DNA from: Spirochaetaceae bacterium
Lineage (GTDB): Bacteria; Spirochaetota; Spirochaetia; WRBN01
NCBI GenBank assembly: GCA_009784515.1
Contig: WRBN01000006.1
Coordinates: 1 to 36,583, forward strand
Reading direction: 5' to 3'
Length of the DNA stretch: 36,583 bases
In this document: positions 1,147 through 18,371 of the stretch, piece by piece
How the letters are laid out: every line of letters starts with the position of its first letter
How positions within the stretch are numbered: the first letter of the stretch is position 1
Made by a program: the position numbers and the translations under genes
The notes under the pieces: generated by a model
The model's database searches: none
What the model was told of the DNA's origin: nothing
The model's input: the letters and a program-made list of their open reading frames with translations, nothing else

Positions 1147-3015
1147 TTATTGAGCGCCAGTAACGATACGGGCATTGGGCAAACTGCTAAAGCCGATAAT
1201 ATCTTGCTGGGTTAAAGGGTTACCGCGTATCACCAGCTCTTGTAAATTAACAAGGCCAGTTACATCTAAACTAATTAGCTGGTTATTAGCCAAATTAAGA
1301 GTAACAAATTGTGTATTATTACTTACATTAAGGCTGGTTAGTTGGTTATTGCTTACATTCATAGTTCTTAAAGCAACGTTAGTAGTTAAATTTAACTGGC
1401 TTAGCTGGTTACCGCCGGCGCTAAGATGGGCCAAATTAACCAAACGGTCTAGGTTAAGGCTGGTTAGTTGATTATTACTTACATTAAAACTTTCTAACCT
1501 AAGCAAATTACTTACATCTAAACCAGTTAATTGATTATCTACCACCTGAAAAAAAGTTAAATTAACGTTACGGCTTACATCTAAGCCGGTTAAATCATTC
1601 CAATTTAAATTAAGCCTATCTAAATTAATATTATTACGTAAATTTATGCTGGTTAATTGGTTTCTTGCCAAATTAAGCTCGGTAAGTCTGGTTAGCCTTC
1701 GCACGTCAAGGCCGGTAAGCTGGTTACCCCCTGCCCAAAGGGTAGTTAAATTACTAAGCCTGCTTACATCTAGGCTGGTTAACTGGTTAGTATGCAGCTC
1801 TAAAACCGTTAAAGTATTAATCCGTCCAAAATTAATAGTGGTTAGTTGGTTAGTGGCAGCATAAAGATGGGTAAGCCTAGTCCGGCTTACATCTAAACTG
1901 GTTAGCTGGTTCCCCGCTATACTAAGCCAAGTTAAATTGGTGTTATTACTTACATTAAAATTAGTTAAGTTGTTGCCGGTTACATTAAGCCAAGTTAAAC
2001 CCCTTAAATTGCTAATATCCAAATTATCTATTGAGTTGTTAAATAAATCGAGGCTGGTTAACCTAACGTTATTACTTACATTAAAACCGGTTAGTTGATT
2101 ATCACGGGCATTCACTAAAGTTAAATTAACAAGACTATCAATATTTAAATGAGTTAATTGATTAGCTCTTGCATTAAGCTCGGTTAACCTAATCAGACCG
2201 TCTACATTAAGGCTGGTTAAGCGGTTATTATGCACCCATAAAACCGTTAAATTGGTAAGCCCATTAACATTAAGGTTAGTTAGCTGGTTATCTTGTAGTT
2301 CCAGCTCGGTTAAATGGCTAAGATGATTAACGGTGATACTCGTTAGCCGGTTATCGTTTACATAAAGATTAGCCAAAATAGTATTATTATTTAAATTAAG
2401 GCTAGTTAGCTGGTTAGCGCCTACGCTAAGCCAAGTTAATAAGGGATTATTACTTACATTAAAACCAGTTAAATTATTGTTACCCACATTAAGCCAAGTT
2501 AAATTGGTAAGAGTGTTTATATTAAGGCTGGCTAATTGATTGTTCCATAAATCTAGCACTCCTAAATTGGTAAGCCGGCTTATATCTAAGCTGGCTAACT
2601 GGTTATTACGGCCGCTAAACCAAGTTAAATTGGTAAGGTTACTTATATTAAGAGCAGTTAATTCGTTATCGCCTAAATCTAGCTCTACTAAGCGTGTTAG
2701 GTTATTTATATTAATGGCGGTTAATTGATTATTACCGGCATCAAGCCAAACTAACCCGGTAAGGTACTCTAGCCCCGCCGCATCGCTAATGTTTCGGCCG
2801 CTAATATCAAGGCCGCCGCCAAGTGCAGCTAAGGCATTACTTAGCTCTTGCCCGGTAAGGCCGGCATTACGGCCCAGCCGCTGGGCTACCGCTGTGCGTA
2901 AGTTGCCATCGGGGAATAAACTATTAAGGGTGGCGCCGGCCGGCACCGATAAACCCTGCCCGTAACTACTAGCTAAAGCCGTTATTAATAAAATAATGGT
3001 TAAACATTTTTTCAT
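1147..3015 (-). CDS. Secreted leucine-rich-repeat protein (622 aa)
   Basis: The signal peptide covers residues 1-19 (ending ASSYGQ). The cap region (about 23-75) carries SLFPDGNLRTAVAQRLG and is shared with the flanking LRR paralogues. About 25 tandem 21-residue repeats follow to near residue 605, with consensus LTxLNVxxLxxLTxLxxxxNQ, and a short C-terminal cap (NPLTQQDIIGFSSLPNARI). No membrane anchor, LPXTG or choline-binding segment is visible, so the protein is either released or held non-covalently. It is the first gene of a two-gene LRR unit, with its own promoter at 3047-3075 and an AAGAGGA ribosome-binding site. The repeats are about 63 bp in DNA, giving scope for recombination. A host or glycan-binding role is inferred from the fold only. 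Confidence 0.9.
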   Translation of the reverse strand: MKKCLTIILLITALASSYGQGLSVPAGATLNSLFPDGNLRTAVAQRLGRNAGLTGQELSNALAALGGGLDISGRNISDAAGLEYLTGLVWLDAGNNQLTAININNLTRLVELDLGDNELTALNISNLTNLTWFSGRNNQLASLDISRLTNLGVLDLWNNQLASLNINTLTNLTWLNVGNNNLTGFNVSNNPLLTWLSVGANQLTSLNLNNNTILANLYVNDNRLTSITVNHLSHLTELELQDNQLTNLNVNGLTNLTVLWVHNNRLTSLNVDGLIRLTELNARANQLTHLNIDSLVNLTLVNARDNQLTGFNVSNNVRLTSLDLFNNSIDNLDISNLRGLTWLNVTGNNLTNFNVSNNTNLTWLSIAGNQLTSLDVSRTRLTHLYAATNQLTTINFGRINTLTVLELHTNQLTSLDVSRLSNLTTLWAGGNQLTGLDVRRLTRLTELNLARNQLTSINLRNNINLDRLNLNWNDLTGLDVSRNVNLTFFQVVDNQLTGLDVSNLLRLESFNVSNNQLTSLNLDRLVNLAHLSAGGNQLSQLNLTTNVALRTMNVSNNQLTSLNVSNNTQFVTLNLANNQLISLDVTGLVNLQELVIRGNPLTQQDIIGFSSLPNARIVTGAQ

Positions 3016-5147: not shown

Positions 5148-6536
5148 TTAAAACCAATCATGCGTTATTATTCTTAAATTAGGCAGGGTATCTATTCCTA
5201 TAATATTTTCTTCGGCCAATGTATGGCCATCTATCCTAAGCTGCTGCAAATGAGTAAAACCGCTTATGTTAAGGCTGATTATGTGCGGATTATGGCGGAT
5301 AGTTAAAAAAGTTAAGCCCGTAAGATTGCTTATATCTAAGCTAACCAACTGCGAATTACTCGATACATTAAGGCCTCTTAAATTACTAAGGTTACTTACA
5401 TCTAAGCTAACTAACAGTGGATTATTTGTTACAAATAAACGAGTTAAGCCCGTAAGATTACCTATATTAAGGCTAGTTAATTGCCTATTAGAATGTACCG
5501 TAAGATCGTTTAAATTAAGGTTGCTGCTTACATCTAAGCTAATTATGCCGCTACCGCCTACTTCAAGGTGGGTTAAATTAAGCAAATTACTTACATTAAG
5601 GTTAGTTAGCCTGCTGTTAATTATTGTAAGATGTGTTAAATTATTATTATTGCTTAAATCTAGGCTCATTAATGGGTTGCCATCACCAACATTAAGCCGC
5701 TTTAAATAAATATTATTACTTATATCTAAATGCGTTATACTATTTCTTGCTATATCAATCTGAGTTAGATGTGCGTTATTATCTATATTAAGATTGGTTA
5801 ACTGATTAGCACCTACAAAAAGCTCGCTTAAGTAAGTAAGGCCGCTTACATCTAAGTAAGTTAAATTATTACTGCCTACAGCAAGCACGTTTAAATTAAC
5901 AAGGTTACTTACATCTATGCCGGTTAGCCGATTGTTTGCCGCTAAAAGGGTGGTTAACTTGGTGTTATGGCTTACATCTAACTGGGTTAAGCGGTTACCC
6001 GCTACATTAAGCAAAGTTAAATTAGGCAAATTACTTACATTTAGGTTGGTTAGGCCCCAAGTAAGCTTTTCGTCGCTAATCGGCGGCTGATTTTCTATAC
6101 GCAAATCAGCTAAATTAGGTAAATAATCAAACTCGATGGAAGCTAAGCGGCTCATCTCTAGCCGCAGTTCGGTTAAATTAGGCAAATGGCCTAATTTAAA
6201 ATGAGTTAAGCTATACAAATCAAACTGGCCGAAATGCAGCTTAGTTATGTTACCCGATGTTATGGTAAGCTCTCTTAAACCACTTAAATAGCGCAAACCG
6301 GTACCATCATTTACATTATCTATAGTTAATGTGCGAATTCCGGCCACTGCATCGCCCAGCCTTTGCCCCATTAAAGCGGCACGGCGGCTGCCTAACCTTT
6401 GGGCTACGGCATTGCGCAAAGCTTCATCGGGAAAGAGGCTCTCAAGGGTGGCATCGCCCGCTACAGGACGCCCTCCTGTAAAATAATGACAGCTTACAGT
6501 TGCCAGCAGTAAAACTATAGCCAAAATAACTTTCAT
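5148..6536 (-). CDS. Leucine-rich-repeat lipoprotein (462 aa)
   Basis: Residues 1-16 end in LLATVSC, a relaxed lipobox of spirochaete type, so the protein is probably a lipoprotein acylated at Cys16. The cap (SLFPDEALRNAVAQRLG, residues 34-50) is the one found in the two other LRR proteins of the window. A divergent LRR section follows (about 70-155, more irregular spacing), then about 14 regular 21-residue repeats (LTxLDVSxLxxLxxLxVxxN) and a C-terminal cap (EENIIGIDTLPNLRI). Unlike its paralogues it carries a lipid anchor. AAGAGG precedes the start. It is divergent from the gene at 6635. Surface exposure is plausible but inferred. Confidence 0.87.
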   Translation of the reverse strand: MKVILAIVLLLATVSCHYFTGGRPVAGDATLESLFPDEALRNAVAQRLGSRRAALMGQRLGDAVAGIRTLTIDNVNDGTGLRYLSGLRELTITSGNITKLHFGQFDLYSLTHFKLGHLPNLTELRLEMSRLASIEFDYLPNLADLRIENQPPISDEKLTWGLTNLNVSNLPNLTLLNVAGNRLTQLDVSHNTKLTTLLAANNRLTGIDVSNLVNLNVLAVGSNNLTYLDVSGLTYLSELFVGANQLTNLNIDNNAHLTQIDIARNSITHLDISNNIYLKRLNVGDGNPLMSLDLSNNNNLTHLTIINSRLTNLNVSNLLNLTHLEVGGSGIISLDVSSNLNLNDLTVHSNRQLTSLNIGNLTGLTRLFVTNNPLLVSLDVSNLSNLRGLNVSSNSQLVSLDISNLTGLTFLTIRHNPHIISLNISGFTHLQQLRIDGHTLAEENIIGIDTLPNLRIITHDWF

Positions 6537-14323: not shown

Positions 14324-14710
14324 TTAGCCATTTTTAAGCCTTTGTTCTTCTTGTTCAATAGCTTTTTTAAGAGCCTCAAGAGCGGCAGGGACATCTTCTT
14401 TAGCTACCTTTAATAATCTCCGCTCCCTAACCCCATCATATTCATGAATAATTACATTACGCATATCGGTCATATCGCGCCAAAGAATATCTTTATATTT
14501 ATTTTGTATCTCCTCCGAAACACGATTAGCGGCTTCACCCGCTATCTCAAAGGTACGTTCTAAACCACGCATAACCAACTTAGAGTATTTTTCATCTATT
14601 TCTTTATTCTGCTGTAAAAGTATTTCATACTCGGCAGCATAGCCTACTCCTTCTGTAAGACTGGCTATCATATCTTTCATATATTGTATATGGCGTTTAT
14701 TCTTTTTCAT
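14324..14710 (-). CDS. HepT-like toxin (HEPN ribonuclease)
   Basis: 128 residues, all-helical HEPN fold. The catalytic RX4HXY motif is R84-NVII-H89-E-Y91 (MRNVIIHEY). The region LERTFEIAGEAANRVSEEI is typical of HepT (DUF86). HepT is the RNase toxin of HepT/MntA modules; in studied systems the antitoxin MntA AMPylates the Tyr of this motif and blocks activity. The start overlaps the stop of the antitoxin gene (ATGA), indicating translational coupling. The motif is complete, so an active toxin is plausible. The last 20 residues are a charged tail (KKAIEQEEQRLKNG). Confidence 0.9.
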   Translation of the reverse strand: MKKNKRHIQYMKDMIASLTEGVGYAAEYEILLQQNKEIDEKYSKLVMRGLERTFEIAGEAANRVSEEIQNKYKDILWRDMTDMRNVIIHEYDGVRERRLLKVAKEDVPAALEALKKAIEQEEQRLKNG

Positions 14711-15048: not shown

Positions 15049-15897
15049 TTACTTATAAATAGTGCAGCAATTACGGCCGTTTTCTTTGCTAAAATATAAA
15101 GCTTCGTCGGCACGTTCCATCAAGGTGTTTAAATTATGAAAGCGGTCTTTATCCCATAAAGCAATCCCTAAACTAACCGTTACTTGATAATATGTCGGCA
15201 AAGCCCGATATTGGTGCGAAGCCACTTTTAACCTAACTTTTTCGGCCGCAGCCAAGCTGGCGCTATAACCGGTGCAGGGCAGCATAGCTACAAATTCTTC
15301 GCCGCCATAACGCGCAAATAAATCGCTGCGCCTAAGGTTATCTTTACAAAGAGCCGCCAGCTCTTTTAGCACCTCATCACCCACGCTGTGGCCAAAGTTA
15401 TCGTTAATAGCTTTAAAAAAATCTATATCGATAAACATTAACGCCAGCTCACTGTCTTCACTAACGGTTTGTTTTAAAATTAATTTACCTTTACGCATAA
15501 AAGTGGCCCGATTATTTACTTTTGTAAGATAATCTAAGGTAATTAATCTTTTAATTTTACGGTTGTGCCGCTGAAACACATTGGCCAACTGGTCTAACTG
15601 GTGGCCAATATAATCTAACTCGCCGCTATTAGATAGATAAGTACGCGCCGAAAAATCGCCTTCTTTTAATTTAGATAAAGTAGTTAAAATACGATTAATT
15701 TTACGGTTTAAACTTTTACGTAAAGCTAAGATGGCCGAAAGATTGGCAAAAATGTTAATAATTAACGTGGCCATCAATAACCAAATAGCTGTGCGATAGC
15801 TACCCTGTAATAACATAGGAACAACTAAAATAATACTTAAAGTTGGTAATACCACCAAACCGTAAGGCAAAAATCTATAAAAATGGTCCTTTTTCAT
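15049..15897 (-). CDS. Membrane-bound diguanylate cyclase (GGDEF)
   Basis: 282 residues. Two transmembrane helices lie at about 11-31 and 37-59, and a HAMP-like linker (60-112) leads to a GGDEF domain (118-282). The active site is GGEEF (198-202), with the Mg-binding FIDIDFFKAIND upstream, and an inhibitory RxxD site (R189-D192) sits exactly five residues ahead. It should make cyclic di-GMP from two GTP, with product feedback. No periplasmic sensor domain is visible between the helices, so input may come from the membrane or the HAMP segment. A strong GGGGGAG ribosome-binding site precedes the start. The 161-base gap upstream holds no gene. Confidence 0.93.
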   Translation of the reverse strand: MKKDHFYRFLPYGLVVLPTLSIILVVPMLLQGSYRTAIWLLMATLIINIFANLSAILALRKSLNRKINRILTTLSKLKEGDFSARTYLSNSGELDYIGHQLDQLANVFQRHNRKIKRLITLDYLTKVNNRATFMRKGKLILKQTVSEDSELALMFIDIDFFKAINDNFGHSVGDEVLKELAALCKDNLRRSDLFARYGGEEFVAMLPCTGYSASLAAAEKVRLKVASHQYRALPTYYQVTVSLGIALWDKDRFHNLNTLMERADEALYFSKENGRNCCTIYK

Positions 15898-16058: not shown

Positions 16059-16433
16059 TTAACTATTATAAGCCAAAGCCAATTTATTAAAATTTTGGGT
16101 AAGGGCATATAAAGCTACAAAAATACCAAAAATTATGCCGCCCACCAAAGTAATAAGCACATAAGCCCCGCCGCTTTCGTTAATGGTAATATTGCGGCTG
16201 TCGCCATTTTCTTGCAGACGGTTGCCCAGTTCGTAAAGCCAAACAAGGCCGTATAAACCAAAGGTAACTAACCCTAGCAATAAAACCATTAGGCCGCCTT
16301 TAGTTGTTTTACCATCGCCGGCGCAAATAATATTAACATCATGCGCTATTTTATCGCTCCAATAAGCACTATATAGGCCAAGAGTAACCAGCATTAAAGC
16401 GGCATCTAGCCAAAAATTACGTTCGTTAATCAT
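16059..16433 (-). CDS. DUF4234 membrane protein
   Basis: 124 residues with three transmembrane segments (about 10-26, 48-67, 90-112). Two copies of the DUF4234 motif appear: LVTLGLYSAYWSDKIAHDVN (16-35) and LVTFGLYGLVWLYELGNRLQ (55-74), so the protein is built on an internal duplication. The family is small, common in host-associated bacteria and of unknown function. The promoter 16440-16468 is leaderless. It could be read through into the GGDEF gene 161 bases downstream, but that gene has its own ribosome-binding site. Confidence 0.8.
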   Translation of the reverse strand: MINERNFWLDAALMLVTLGLYSAYWSDKIAHDVNIICAGDGKTTKGGLMVLLLGLVTFGLYGLVWLYELGNRLQENGDSRNITINESGGAYVLITLVGGIIFGIFVALYALTQNFNKLALAYNS

Positions 16434-16468: not shown

Positions 16469-16487
16469 GGGAAAATAGTTAAGATAT

Positions 16488-16535
16488 AACCACAAAAGAC
16501 ACAAAAATATTATTCTTTTCGCGTCTTTTGTGGTT
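16488..16535 (-). terminator. 13-bp inverted repeat after the membrane/coiled-coil gene
   Basis: AACCACAAAAGAC (16488-16500) and GTCTTTTGTGGTT (16523-16535) are perfect complements around a 22-base A/T-rich loop. It begins 21 bases past the stop of the gene at 16557 and probably ends that transcript, though no clean T-run follows. The sequence looks like a dispersed palindromic repeat rather than a minimal terminator. Confidence 0.5.
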
Positions 16536-16556
16536 AATTTGCCATTGCTTTGCCTG

Positions 16557-17408
16557 TTATATTAGCGGTTTTTCGTTATAGTCTTCAATTATTTCGTACA
16601 TATCATATTTTAAGCAATCGGCCAGCAGCTGTTTATCGTTTTTAGTTAAGTTATTGTACTCTAAAGCTTCTTTTAGTATACGGCTAATATGTCCGCTGCT
16701 GTAATAGGGGCTTTCACTCGCTTTGGGGTTTTCTTTAAGGCAGTTATTTTGCTTTTTACCTTCAACAAGGTGCTGGGTTAAACCGCTCTTATCTTTTTCT
16801 TTAATAAAAACCACTGGCATTTTTGGTGTGCGGCCATTTAAAGCCTCTCTCGCCGCAAGCTGAGCAGTTAGCCGCTCTTTTTCGGCTCTTTCCGCCGCTA
16901 ATTCGGTTTTTAAGCCGGTTACTTGGTTACGGGCTGCCGTTGCTTCTTCTTTAACAAGTTCTATTTGCCTTTTGGCCATTAAAACACCAATAAAACCACC
17001 GGTGTAGGTAGTGGCCGTATTAAACATAATCCCTATATCTACCCTTAACATTAAGTTTCTGGTAAAAAAAGCAAATATAAGAAGAAAAAAAGCGGGAACA
17101 CTTAATTTTAAAGGTACAAAAAGGGCGGTTAAAGCAAAAGGCAGCCAATAATAGCCGTTATTAGGGCTAATAACCCACATCCAAATTATGGCTACGGCGG
17201 CAGCTATAACCAGCCCAACGTTATAGTACCACTTAGGTAACCATAAATTACTTCGGTAAAGGCCAATAAGCACCAGTGATGTAAGCAACAAAGGAGCTGC
17301 TTCGCTGCCTACATAAACAAGGTTGCTAACAGAGAATATAATGGTTAAAACCAAACAAACTACATATAACCACAACAAAACATAATCGGCTGTGTTTTTA
17401 TTTTTCAT
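16557..17408 (-). CDS. Polytopic membrane protein with coiled coil, partner of the secreted peptides
   Basis: I do not recognise the family. Of 283 residues, about 1-145 form five or six transmembrane helices (near 9-31, 36-51, 62-81, 86-118 as one or two, 125-145). Residues 146-192 are a strong coiled coil rich in Ala, Glu, Lys and Arg (LKTELAAERAEKERLTAQLA). Residues 193-283 form a charged cytoplasmic tail ending in predicted helices (SGHISRILKEALEYNNL and KQLLADCLKYDMYEII). There is no kinase, GGDEF or HTH motif. It starts 12 bases after the stop of a 41-residue secreted peptide and lacks its own Shine-Dalgarno, which suggests coupling. A receptor, transporter or immunity role for those peptides is inferred from layout only. 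Confidence 0.78.
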   Translation of the reverse strand: MKNKNTADYVLLWLYVVCLVLTIIFSVSNLVYVGSEAAPLLLTSLVLIGLYRSNLWLPKWYYNVGLVIAAAVAIIWMWVISPNNGYYWLPFALTALFVPLKLSVPAFFLLIFAFFTRNLMLRVDIGIMFNTATTYTGGFIGVLMAKRQIELVKEEATAARNQVTGLKTELAAERAEKERLTAQLAAREALNGRTPKMPVVFIKEKDKSGLTQHLVEGKKQNNCLKENPKASESPYYSSGHISRILKEALEYNNLTKNDKQLLADCLKYDMYEIIEDYNEKPLI

Positions 17409-17420
17409 TATATTAATAGT

Positions 17421-17546
17421 TTACGGTCTTTTTTCACCCCATGGCCCAGTTGGATTGTCATTTCCGCTTTGAATAAAACGCGGCTCAGCGCTTAAAGTCC
17501 CAGCGGTTAATAAAGCCAACATTAAAATAGCAAGTAATTTTTTCAT
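17421..17546 (-). CDS. Secreted small peptide, copy 1 (41 aa)
   Basis: The ATG at 17546 has AAGGAAGG (17555-17562) eight bases upstream. Residues 1-20 are a textbook Sec signal: MKK, a hydrophobic core LLAILMLALL, then TAGTLSA. Predicted cleavage after A20 leaves a 21-residue peptide, EPRFIQ followed by SGNDNPTGPWGEKRP. It has no Cys and no double-glycine leader, so it is neither a lantibiotic nor a Bacteriocin_IIc type. The paralogue at 17664 shares the signal and EPRFIQ. The shared pattern G..NP.G.W..K..P is conserved while other residues vary. The membrane protein gene follows by 12 bases. Likely roles are an extracellular signal or a narrow-spectrum antimicrobial; neither is proven. Confidence 0.8.
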   Translation of the reverse strand: MKKLLAILMLALLTAGTLSAEPRFIQSGNDNPTGPWGEKRP

Positions 17547-17569
17547 AAATAAAACCTTCCTTTAAATAA

Positions 17570-17586
17570 ATAATATTTTATATTAT
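17570..17586. promoter_or_regulatory. Operator-like dyad at peptide promoter 1
   Basis: ATAATAT - TTT - ATATTAT, a perfect 7-bp inverted repeat that overlaps the -10 box (17582-17587). The identical dyad recurs at copy 2. Confidence 0.45.
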
Positions 17587-17608
17587 ACCTTTCGGCTATT
17601 ATTGACAA
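17582..17608 (-). promoter_or_regulatory. Promoter of peptide copy 1
   Basis: Minus strand: TTGTCA (17603-17608), 15 bases, TATAAT (17582-17587). A TAATAT two bases on would give 17-base spacing. Either way the leader carries the AAGGAAGG site. Confidence 0.55.
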
Positions 17609-17663
17609 AACTTTAGGTATAAAATAAAAAAAGTAACTACTAATTAAGTTTTAAAAAATTTAC

Positions 17664-17786
17664 TTATGGCTTTCCTGCCCACGCGCCTCCCGGATTATTA
17701 CCACCTCCTTGAATAAAACGCGGCTCAGCGCTTAAAGTTCCAGCGGTTAATAAAGCTAACATTAAAATAGCAAGTAATTTTTTCAT
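17664..17786 (-). CDS. Secreted small peptide, copy 2 (40 aa)
   Basis: The ATG at 17786 has AAGGAAGG (17795-17802) upstream. The 20-residue signal peptide is identical to that of copy 1. The predicted mature peptide is 20 residues, EPRFIQ then GGGNNPGGAWAGKP: more Gly, net positive, one residue shorter than copy 1. Conserved with copy 1 are EPRFIQ, the NP pair, the central Gly, the Trp, the Lys and the final Pro. Nucleotide changes are concentrated in the mature part, while the signal-coding and upstream bases are nearly unchanged. It is the first gene of the inferred unit peptide 2 - peptide 1 - membrane protein. A type I toxin is an alternative, but the polar C-terminus and cleavage site argue for export. 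Confidence 0.8.
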   Translation of the reverse strand: MKKLLAILMLALLTAGTLSAEPRFIQGGGNNPGGAWAGKP

Positions 17787-17809
17787 AAATAAAACCTTCC
17801 TTTAAATAA

Positions 17810-17826
17810 ATAATATTTTATATTAT
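17810..17826. promoter_or_regulatory. Operator-like dyad at peptide promoter 2
   Basis: The same ATAATAT - TTT - ATATTAT inverted repeat, 240 bases from the first copy, overlapping the -10 box. Confidence 0.45.
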
Positions 17827-17848
17827 ACCTTTCGGCCACTATTAACAA
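17822..17848 (-). promoter_or_regulatory. Promoter of peptide copy 2
   Basis: Minus strand: TTGTTA (17843-17848), 15 bases, TATAAT (17822-17827). The -35 differs from copy 1 by one base. The 187 bases from 17849 to 18035 hold no other gene that I can see. Confidence 0.5.
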
Positions 17849-18035
17849 AGCTTTAGGCATAAAATAAAAAAAGTAACTACCGGCTAATAGCCAAATATCA
17901 TAAACTTTAGGGATTGTTATGTTAAGTTATTTGCCGGCTACATCAGCTTTTAGCCTATAAAAATGGTTGCCAAAAAGCCATAAATAGGTAAAAATAAAAG
18001 TATATTATCCCACCATAAAAAAGGAGAAATTTATT

Positions 18036-18371
18036 ATGGAAAACAAAAATTTAGAGCAAGAATACCTATTGGAAGGCGCTGCAGAACTTGTGGAAGAGCC
18101 ACAAGCCTTATTGCAAATAACGGTAAGCGCCACAGCCGTTATGTACAAGGCAAACGAAACAACCGTAGAGTTTGCCGTTAATTCGCCCAGCAAATTAACG
18201 GTATGTTATTTTATTTTTAACCCCGAAGATGTAAACTTTACCCGCTTTAAGTTATCCCAAGCCGGCGCCTTTAAGCAGGCCTTTACAAGCGGCCACCACC
18301 ACATTGCTGTAGAGGCCGAAGACGAAGATGGCCGTACCGCTACTAAAACTTTTACTTTAAAGGTGCGTTAG
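18036..18371 (+). CDS. Small acidic protein with Ig-like beta domain (111 aa)
   Basis: The family is not recognised. An acidic N-terminal tail (residues 1-22, rich in Glu) leads to about 85 residues of alternating strands: LLQITVSATAVMY, TTVEFAVNSPSKLTVCYFIF, HHHIAVEAEDEDGRTATKTF and a terminal LKVR. The final TATKTFTLKV is typical of bacterial Ig-like or cadherin-like domains. There is no signal peptide or membrane segment, so it is cytoplasmic as written. AAGGAG (18021-18026) supports the ATG. A hairpin terminator follows. It is single-gene, divergent from the peptide cassette and convergent with the Smr gene. Confidence 0.75.
   Translation: MENKNLEQEYLLEGAAELVEEPQALLQITVSATAVMYKANETTVEFAVNSPSKLTVCYFIFNPEDVNFTRFKLSQAGAFKQAFTSGHHHIAVEAEDEDGRTATKTFTLKVR

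Follow-up and report, generated by a model that had tools for sequence, protein, structure and literature searches.

The cassette described here consists of two small peptide genes followed by a membrane protein gene, all on the minus strand. It lies in the window, a name used for the whole analysed stretch of 36,583 nt from a Spirochaetaceae bacterium. Peptide gene A (17664–17786) is an open reading frame for 40 amino acids with family matches in its own genome; it encodes a signal peptide of the Sec type (residues 1–20, predicted cut between TLSA and E) and a predicted mature part of 20 residues, EPRFIQGGGNNPGGAWAGKP. Peptide gene B (17421–17546) encodes 41 amino acids, with the signal peptide as in gene A and the predicted mature part EPRFIQSGNDNPTGPWGEKRP, and has 74% identity to the consensus-like query used in the own-genome search. 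Residues 1–26 of the two peptides, from the signal peptide through EPRFIQ, are identical (MKKLLAILMLALLTAGTLSAEPRFIQ) and are followed by diverged tails, GGGNNPGGAWAGK-P in peptide A and SGNDNPTGPWGEKRP in peptide B. The Shine-Dalgarno sequence AAGGAAGG is found 8 nt before the ATG of both genes (17795–17802 for A and 17555–17562 for B, minus strand). The membrane protein gene (16557–17408; 283 amino acids), recognised by its reading frame, hydropathy and paralogues, starts 12 nt past the stop codon of peptide gene B and has no Shine-Dalgarno sequence ahead of its start. The original prediction, made from the letters of the sequence, had described two reading frames of 40 and 41 codons with identical Sec signal peptides and diverged mature parts, followed after 12 bases by a membrane protein gene lacking its own ribosome-binding site; translations and alignment bear out these statements.

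Frames of 30–60 amino acids combining an ATG, a Shine-Dalgarno sequence and a Sec-like leader are represented only by the eight cassette peptides in a six-frame scan of 105 kb of the genome, a sample which includes the cassette contigs and is not an independent background. Three further Sec-like frames in the same 105 kb have a TTG start and no Shine-Dalgarno sequence. Within the window alone (36.6 kb), peptides A and B are the only frames of the ATG/Shine-Dalgarno/Sec-leader type. Ahead of peptide gene B there is a promoter-like TTGTCA-17-TAATAT (17580–17608, minus strand; consensus match only), most of which is retained in the duplicated leader ahead of gene A. Since the region contains 10 promoter-like matches vs 6.0 expected, there is no evidence of function for this site. 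An Rfam search gave chance-level matches only, and RNA folding of the peptide mRNA and of its leader was no better than that of shuffles. Just 3′ of the membrane gene is a near-perfect 21-bp inverted repeat (16487–16536), which folds much better than shuffled sequences do (z = −6.1), has no T-run after it on the minus strand and is absent from the other own-genome contigs read.

The identical leaders of peptides A and B are explained by a tandem duplication of 210 bp that encompasses both genes, detected by repeat search with 89% identity between its copies. Copy 1 (17671–17880) holds the leader and most of peptide gene A, and copy 2 (17431–17640) the leader and most of peptide gene B. The leader and signal-peptide part of the duplication is 96% identical, with 5 differences in the 94 nt of the leader and 2 differences, both synonymous, in the 78 nt encoding the signal peptide and EPRFIQ. 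The remaining 38 aligned nt, corresponding to 14–15 mature codons, have 17 differences (Fisher p = 1e-9), an ungapped count that is somewhat inflated by a tail indel, most codons being still replaced in a hand alignment. The duplicates thus differ strongly in the mature tail only, which is what specificity divergence would predict.

The membrane protein is predicted to have a module of six helices (hydropathy), a coiled-coil linker and a cytoplasmic C-terminal domain, and the helices, coiled coil and tail named in the original prediction were thus obtained again from hydropathy and a low-confidence model. Single-sequence folding of the window protein gave a mean pLDDT of 55.6, which is low confidence, with the best-predicted part at residues 141–180 (pLDDT about 76–82). 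The coiled-coil linker (residues about 148–190; 16839–16967, minus strand) is a continuous helix in this model. By the positive-inside rule the topology would be N-in, C-in, and a conserved W...PN.GYYWLPF segment between helices 3 and 4 would face the periplasm. A single module with a coiled coil of about 48 residues ahead of the tail domain occurs in two copies, those on contigs C6 (the window) and C116, and a doubled module of about 12 helices in five copies. The window module matches both halves of the proteins on C93 (E = 1e-8 and 6e-7) and C38 (E = 8e-16 and 8e-9), and therefore the family includes one- and two-module forms. Among the latter, a comparably long charged linker is present only in C38, and the linkers are short in the others. 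The simplest interpretation of these architectures is a working unit made of two modules, which would be joined by coiled-coil dimerisation or by fusion in one protein.

The cytoplasmic C-terminal domain (residues 193–283; 16560–16832, minus strand), delimited by alignment, is common to all seven paralogues of the membrane protein. Single-sequence folding predicts a beta-beta-alpha-alpha-beta arrangement at low confidence (pLDDT 46); a helix-turn-helix was considered from the alpha-alpha-beta pattern and is not claimed. The domain has no match in Pfam or PDB sequences and nothing significant in PHROGs. Homology to its second half is seen in a 93-aa protein that stands alone on contig C42 (E about 2e-5, obtained with profiles not containing C42), and this free-standing copy hints at a general regulatory module. 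A later profile comparison between the tail domain and C42 was discarded as circular, C42 being already in the alignment. The gene for the 93-aa protein (L034, 2444–2725, minus strand) comes straight after a large gene for a DNA methyltransferase, on its downstream side, beside a restriction-modification locus.

Profile searches of the own genome (an assembly of 1.83 Mb in 129 contigs, 95% complete) identified seven membrane paralogues, on C6 (window), C38, C93, C116, C60, C115+C62, and C81. Matching ends suggest that C115 and C62 carry one membrane gene extending over two contig ends. The paralogues have diverged to about 20–27% identity (24–27% when first aligned with the window copy). Membrane homologues devoid of peptide genes would have spoken against the pairing put forward in the original prediction, and this was checked: in all six loci with a readable upstream side, one or two Sec-peptide genes having good ribosome-binding sites are found directly upstream of the membrane gene. 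There are eight such genes in all, two each at C6 and C60, and one each at C38, C93, C83+C116, and C115. Contig C116 starts within the peptide reading frame, its end matches the end of C83 exactly over 83 nt, and C83 has the complete peptide gene. Contig C81 starts within the membrane gene, so its upstream side is unreadable and it is outside the count of six. As the pairing is kept in 6/6 loci although the membrane proteins have diverged, it is conserved and not a matter of chance. No solo peptide gene was found in searches of the own genome. Distances among the peptides follow those among the membrane proteins (Mantel r = 0.96, p = 0.003), a correlation driven mainly by the close C60/C115 pair. 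The cassette of peptide gene and membrane partner gene is present in at least six copies in the genome; these copies, the tandem repeat and the recurrent divergent gene at 18036–18371 go beyond the original prediction.

Cassette genes are located at contig ends unusually often (C60, C62, C81, C83, C115, and C116), as if repeats break the assembly, and further copies may be absent from it. The copies are flanked by ordinary chromosomal genes at different sites and have no plasmid or phage match, and a reading of the cassette as a mobile element was rejected. Four cassette intergenic regions share three 9-mers vs 1.85 expected, which is at shuffle level, and no common operator-like motif was found in them. 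At C116, TTGACA-17-CATAAT (11/12) lies between the peptide and membrane genes and ends 7 nt before the membrane ATG (L003, 2243–2271, minus strand), a position from which the membrane gene may be transcribed as leaderless mRNA. At C93, a promoter close to consensus, likewise 7 nt from the membrane ATG, was dismissed, having a spacer of 19 nt and being unlisted by the scan.

Coding constraint is evident in the signal peptides. Between C6, C38, C93, and C83, signal-peptide codons have pS of 0.15–0.69 vs pN of 0.00–0.16, and between C60 and C115 the values are 0.31 vs 0.04; this synonymous excess between paralogues means that the signal peptide is translated. All eight peptides have KK, a hydrophobic core and a small-x-small site of the A-x-A type (cut after SA, GA, or MA). 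In 390 genomes of the class, the peptide profile matched, outside the own genome, essentially only leaders of longer proteins, over columns 1–21, and the leader is therefore an ordinary Sec leader. Export by Sec and cleavage of the signal peptide would follow for the cassette peptides, to judge from these sequence features. The predicted mature peptides have 17–27 amino acids, a net charge of 0 to +2, GRAVY of −0.2 to −1.7 and no Cys, and are Gly/Pro-rich. They have a common start motif, [EN]-[PS]-[RF]-F, beyond which the tail is variable and rich in Gly, Pro, and Trp. Such neutral, hydrophilic, Cys-free properties lean toward a soluble ligand over a membrane-active killer.

The cassette has no significant match in Pfam, NCBIfam, PADLOC or PDB sequences, which, together with the PHROGs result for the tail domain, supports the earlier view that there is no known counterpart. 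Conservation across spirochaetes, for which a search had been proposed in the original prediction, was not found. The membrane profile has no convincing relative in 392 other genomes of the phylum; one weak match (E = 2e-4 over about 47 columns, near a GGDEF/EAL gene) was judged to be chance. The 15 nearest named metagenome-assembled genomes (MAGs) do not have the membrane family, their only match (E = 0.0035) containing internal stops, and the tail-domain profile matched none of 394 other genomes of the class. Plasmids, phages, viral contigs, and GTDB contigs gave no relative in close-match scans, the kind of search used outside the phylum. With no relatives in about 390 phylum genomes and 15 MAGs, the system looks lineage-restricted, in a sampling that has this genome as the sole member of its genus and two genomes for the order. 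The rpoA of this genome is at most 60% identical to those of named genomes, and its top matches are all spirochaetes.

Across the promoter region from the peptide genes is a divergent gene (18036–18371, plus strand) for a leaderless, beta-sandwich-like protein of 111 amino acids, with profile matches in the own genome. Homologues of 104–118 amino acids have this position at C6, C38, and C93, and a truncated one at C83; the gene is absent at C60 and there is no profile match at C115. An extra copy is found on C38 away from the peptide gene. Outside matches are weak and come from two spirochaete genomes (E about 1e-6 to 5e-6): in L139 a similar domain forms the C-terminus of a DNA methyltransferase-restriction-like protein, and L138 has a truncated relative. 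The divergent gene is probably a more general small domain and not a core gene of the cassette. Both side-domains of the cassette, the tail domain and the divergent gene, touch restriction-modification contexts. Other neighbours on the window include a DUF4234 protein (16059–16433) located between the cassette and a membrane-anchored GGDEF diguanylate cyclase (15049–15897, minus strand), the latter being on the same strand and two genes downstream of the cassette. A HepT-like protein (14324–14710, minus strand; Pfam PF01934) possibly belongs to a HepT/MntA toxin-antitoxin pair. Three large leucine-rich-repeat proteins with secretion leaders, BspA-like by eye (3–1106, 1147–3015, and 5148–6536, minus strand), represent another diversified surface family in the genome.

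Peptide and membrane protein very probably act together in some way, and the putative role of the cassette is probably in sensing the peptides that the cell itself makes or in resistance to them. The preferred reading, with a likelihood somewhat short of even, is an export-and-sense (pheromone-like) circuit of an exported linear peptide ligand and a cognate membrane receptor. The peptide would be made at a high level from the strong Shine-Dalgarno sequence; Sec would export it, and signal peptidase I would cleave it behind the A-x-A site, leaving a linear peptide of 17–27 residues. The membrane protein would then receive it as a ligand from the periplasmic side, with the surroundings of the W...PN.GYYWLPF loop as the most plausible place. 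The working membrane protein would comprise two modules, either in two six-helix proteins dimerised by the coiled coil or in one fused 12-helix protein, in which the binding event would be relayed via the coiled coil to the cytoplasmic C-terminal domain, and several diverged copies would provide several private channels. The dimer, the peptide binding, the signalling, and the output are what we infer here. The circuit is favoured by the 6/6 pairing, the congruent distances, the soluble type of the peptides, the confinement of divergence to the tail, and the presence of a coiled coil in the single-module copies (C6 and C116), as in dimeric sensors. A short, putatively exported peptide gene linked to a partner gene, as found in the readable loci, is a feature of the class of pheromones with membrane receptors, the receptor role being here putative. 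Against it, no output activity or domain, such as kinase or DNA-binding, was recognised in the C-terminal domain; the cassette intergenic regions gave no common operator-like motif; linkage and congruence suit a peptide/immunity system or a small subunit equally; the two window peptides share one membrane protein, where tail divergence would predict different receptors; and the structure models are too poor for peptide docking. The original prediction, which had left the choice between a pheromone and a peptide/immunity system, is partly supported: its partner pairing was borne out, and on that choice the peptide properties lean to a ligand.

In the peptide/immunity reading, which is unlikely, the peptides would be Sec-exported and bacteriocin-like, and the adjacent membrane protein would protect the producer. 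A membrane gene directly after the peptide gene, multiple diverged cassettes, a fast-changing mature part and a lineage-restricted distribution are all consistent with it, and plain Sec leaders are so used in Sec-dependent class IIa bacteriocins, such as enterocin P and hiracin JM79, in which bacteriocin and immunity genes usually form one operon (PMC3546714). The cassette resembles these in the predicted Sec leader on a small peptide and possibly in having several diverged cassettes. However, its short, near neutral, hydrophilic, Gly/Pro-rich mature peptides are unlike most membrane-active bacteriocins, and all eight lack Cys and the class IIa YGNG[VL] motif. The libraries searched gave no family match, the membrane protein matching no known immunity family in Pfam or NCBIfam, and its coiled coil and cytoplasmic domain, both conserved, would be superfluous in an immunity protein. 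The neutral, hydrophilic nature of the peptides and the sensor-like architecture of the partner are the reasons for preferring export-and-sense to immunity. Were the leader to remain uncleaved, the product would be a 40-residue single-helix membrane protein that modulates, or is a structural subunit of, its polytopic partner, an arrangement that is likewise unlikely and has its precedent in MgrB and PhoQ (PMC10576120). MgrB is likewise a protein of <50 amino acids with one N-terminal helix and a periplasmic tail, and its partner has a cytoplasmic domain; the short tail, the fixed gene neighbourhood and the strongly conserved hydrophobic part of the cassette peptides fit as well. Yet an A-x-A-type site, the conserved predicted cleavage site, ends the hydrophobic part in 8/8 peptides, the leader scores like the cleaved leaders of long secreted proteins, and it is the tail that diverges, whereas contact with the partner would be made by the helix; also, unlike MgrB–PhoQ, the partner is not a kinase, and the genes are adjacent and multi-copy. 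Because the cleavage site is universal, export-and-sense is preferred to an uncleaved subunit.

The peptides might instead have an independent envelope or host-directed role, the membrane gene being adjacent only through common descent of the duplicated segment. This is improbable: the copies clearly arose by duplication, with local tandem copies at two loci, but linkage has held in 6/6 cases at unrelated chromosomal positions despite about 20–27% identity, where linkage kept by neutrality alone should have been lost, and solo peptide genes were not detected in the genome. Very improbable is a translation-arrest leader peptide, as in SecM/MifM, with cis control over the membrane gene downstream of it. 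Arrest peptides linked to Sec occur widely (PMC10987492), and the cassette resembles SecM, MifM, and ApdA in having a small Sec-leader frame upstream of a membrane-related gene, here one without its own Shine-Dalgarno sequence; several of the frames end in Pro. In contrast to these systems, the mature parts of 17–27 amino acids are too short for the >30 that a published screen required from the localisation signal to the conserved C-terminal end (PMC10987492), the C-termini vary without a common arrest motif such as a RAPP/RAGP-type ending, and the downstream gene is not a Sec/YidC component. Moreover, the first of the two peptide genes at C6 and C60 is too far upstream for cis action, the tandem copies are left unexplained, and at C116 the TTGACA-17-CATAAT site intervenes between the two genes.

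The cassette can be compared with three further systems. AgrD/AgrB is a Gram-positive autoinducing peptide system, in which AgrB is the processing protease and AgrD is cyclised via Cys/Ser. The cassette likewise pairs a short peptide gene with a gene for a polytopic membrane protein, but it has a Sec leader and no AgrB match in Pfam, and all its mature peptides are devoid of Cys. In diderm cyanobacteria, the Sec-exported precursor PatX gives rise to a short linear signal peptide with the cytoplasmic target HetR (PMC12756182). The diderm setting, the small precursor with a plain Sec leader and the short linear peptide are alike in PatX/PatP–HetR and, if export takes place as predicted, in the cassette; the R-G-[ST]-G-R motif of PatX, however, is absent from all eight cassette peptides, and the linked gene encodes a polytopic membrane protein instead of a cytoplasmic target. 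Treponema pallidum antimicrobial miniproteins are also small spirochaete peptides with a proposed action on other bacteria, but the active ones are cationic amphipathic helices and Sec leaders are present in only 4/68 candidates (PMC9200625), whereas the cassette peptides are neutral and Gly/Pro-rich, with Sec leaders and a linked partner. Since comparison on defining features established membership in none of the named systems, the cassette is filed in no known family. The general kind, a small exported peptide with a linked membrane partner, is already known, and the cassette appears to be a new form of it.

Signalling by peptides that have a genetically linked receptor is a Gram-positive hallmark. 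To our knowledge, well-supported cases of a peptide signal and linked receptor are few in diderms, and in spirochaetes in particular. It is a tentative and rather doubtful proposal that the cassettes represent a new family of receptors in a diderm, dedicated to linear peptide signals that leave by Sec and built as six-helix coiled-coil dimers or 12-helix pseudo-dimers, each with its own diversified peptide, and providing at least six parallel self-recognition channels. If the peptide/immunity reading were true, the cassettes would add a new family of antagonism systems to the spirochaetes. In either reading, the membrane family and its tail domain are without a significant match in the libraries searched. 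Six peptide–partner pairs in one genome, with divergence confined to the tail, constitute a natural specificity panel that is swappable in a laboratory host.
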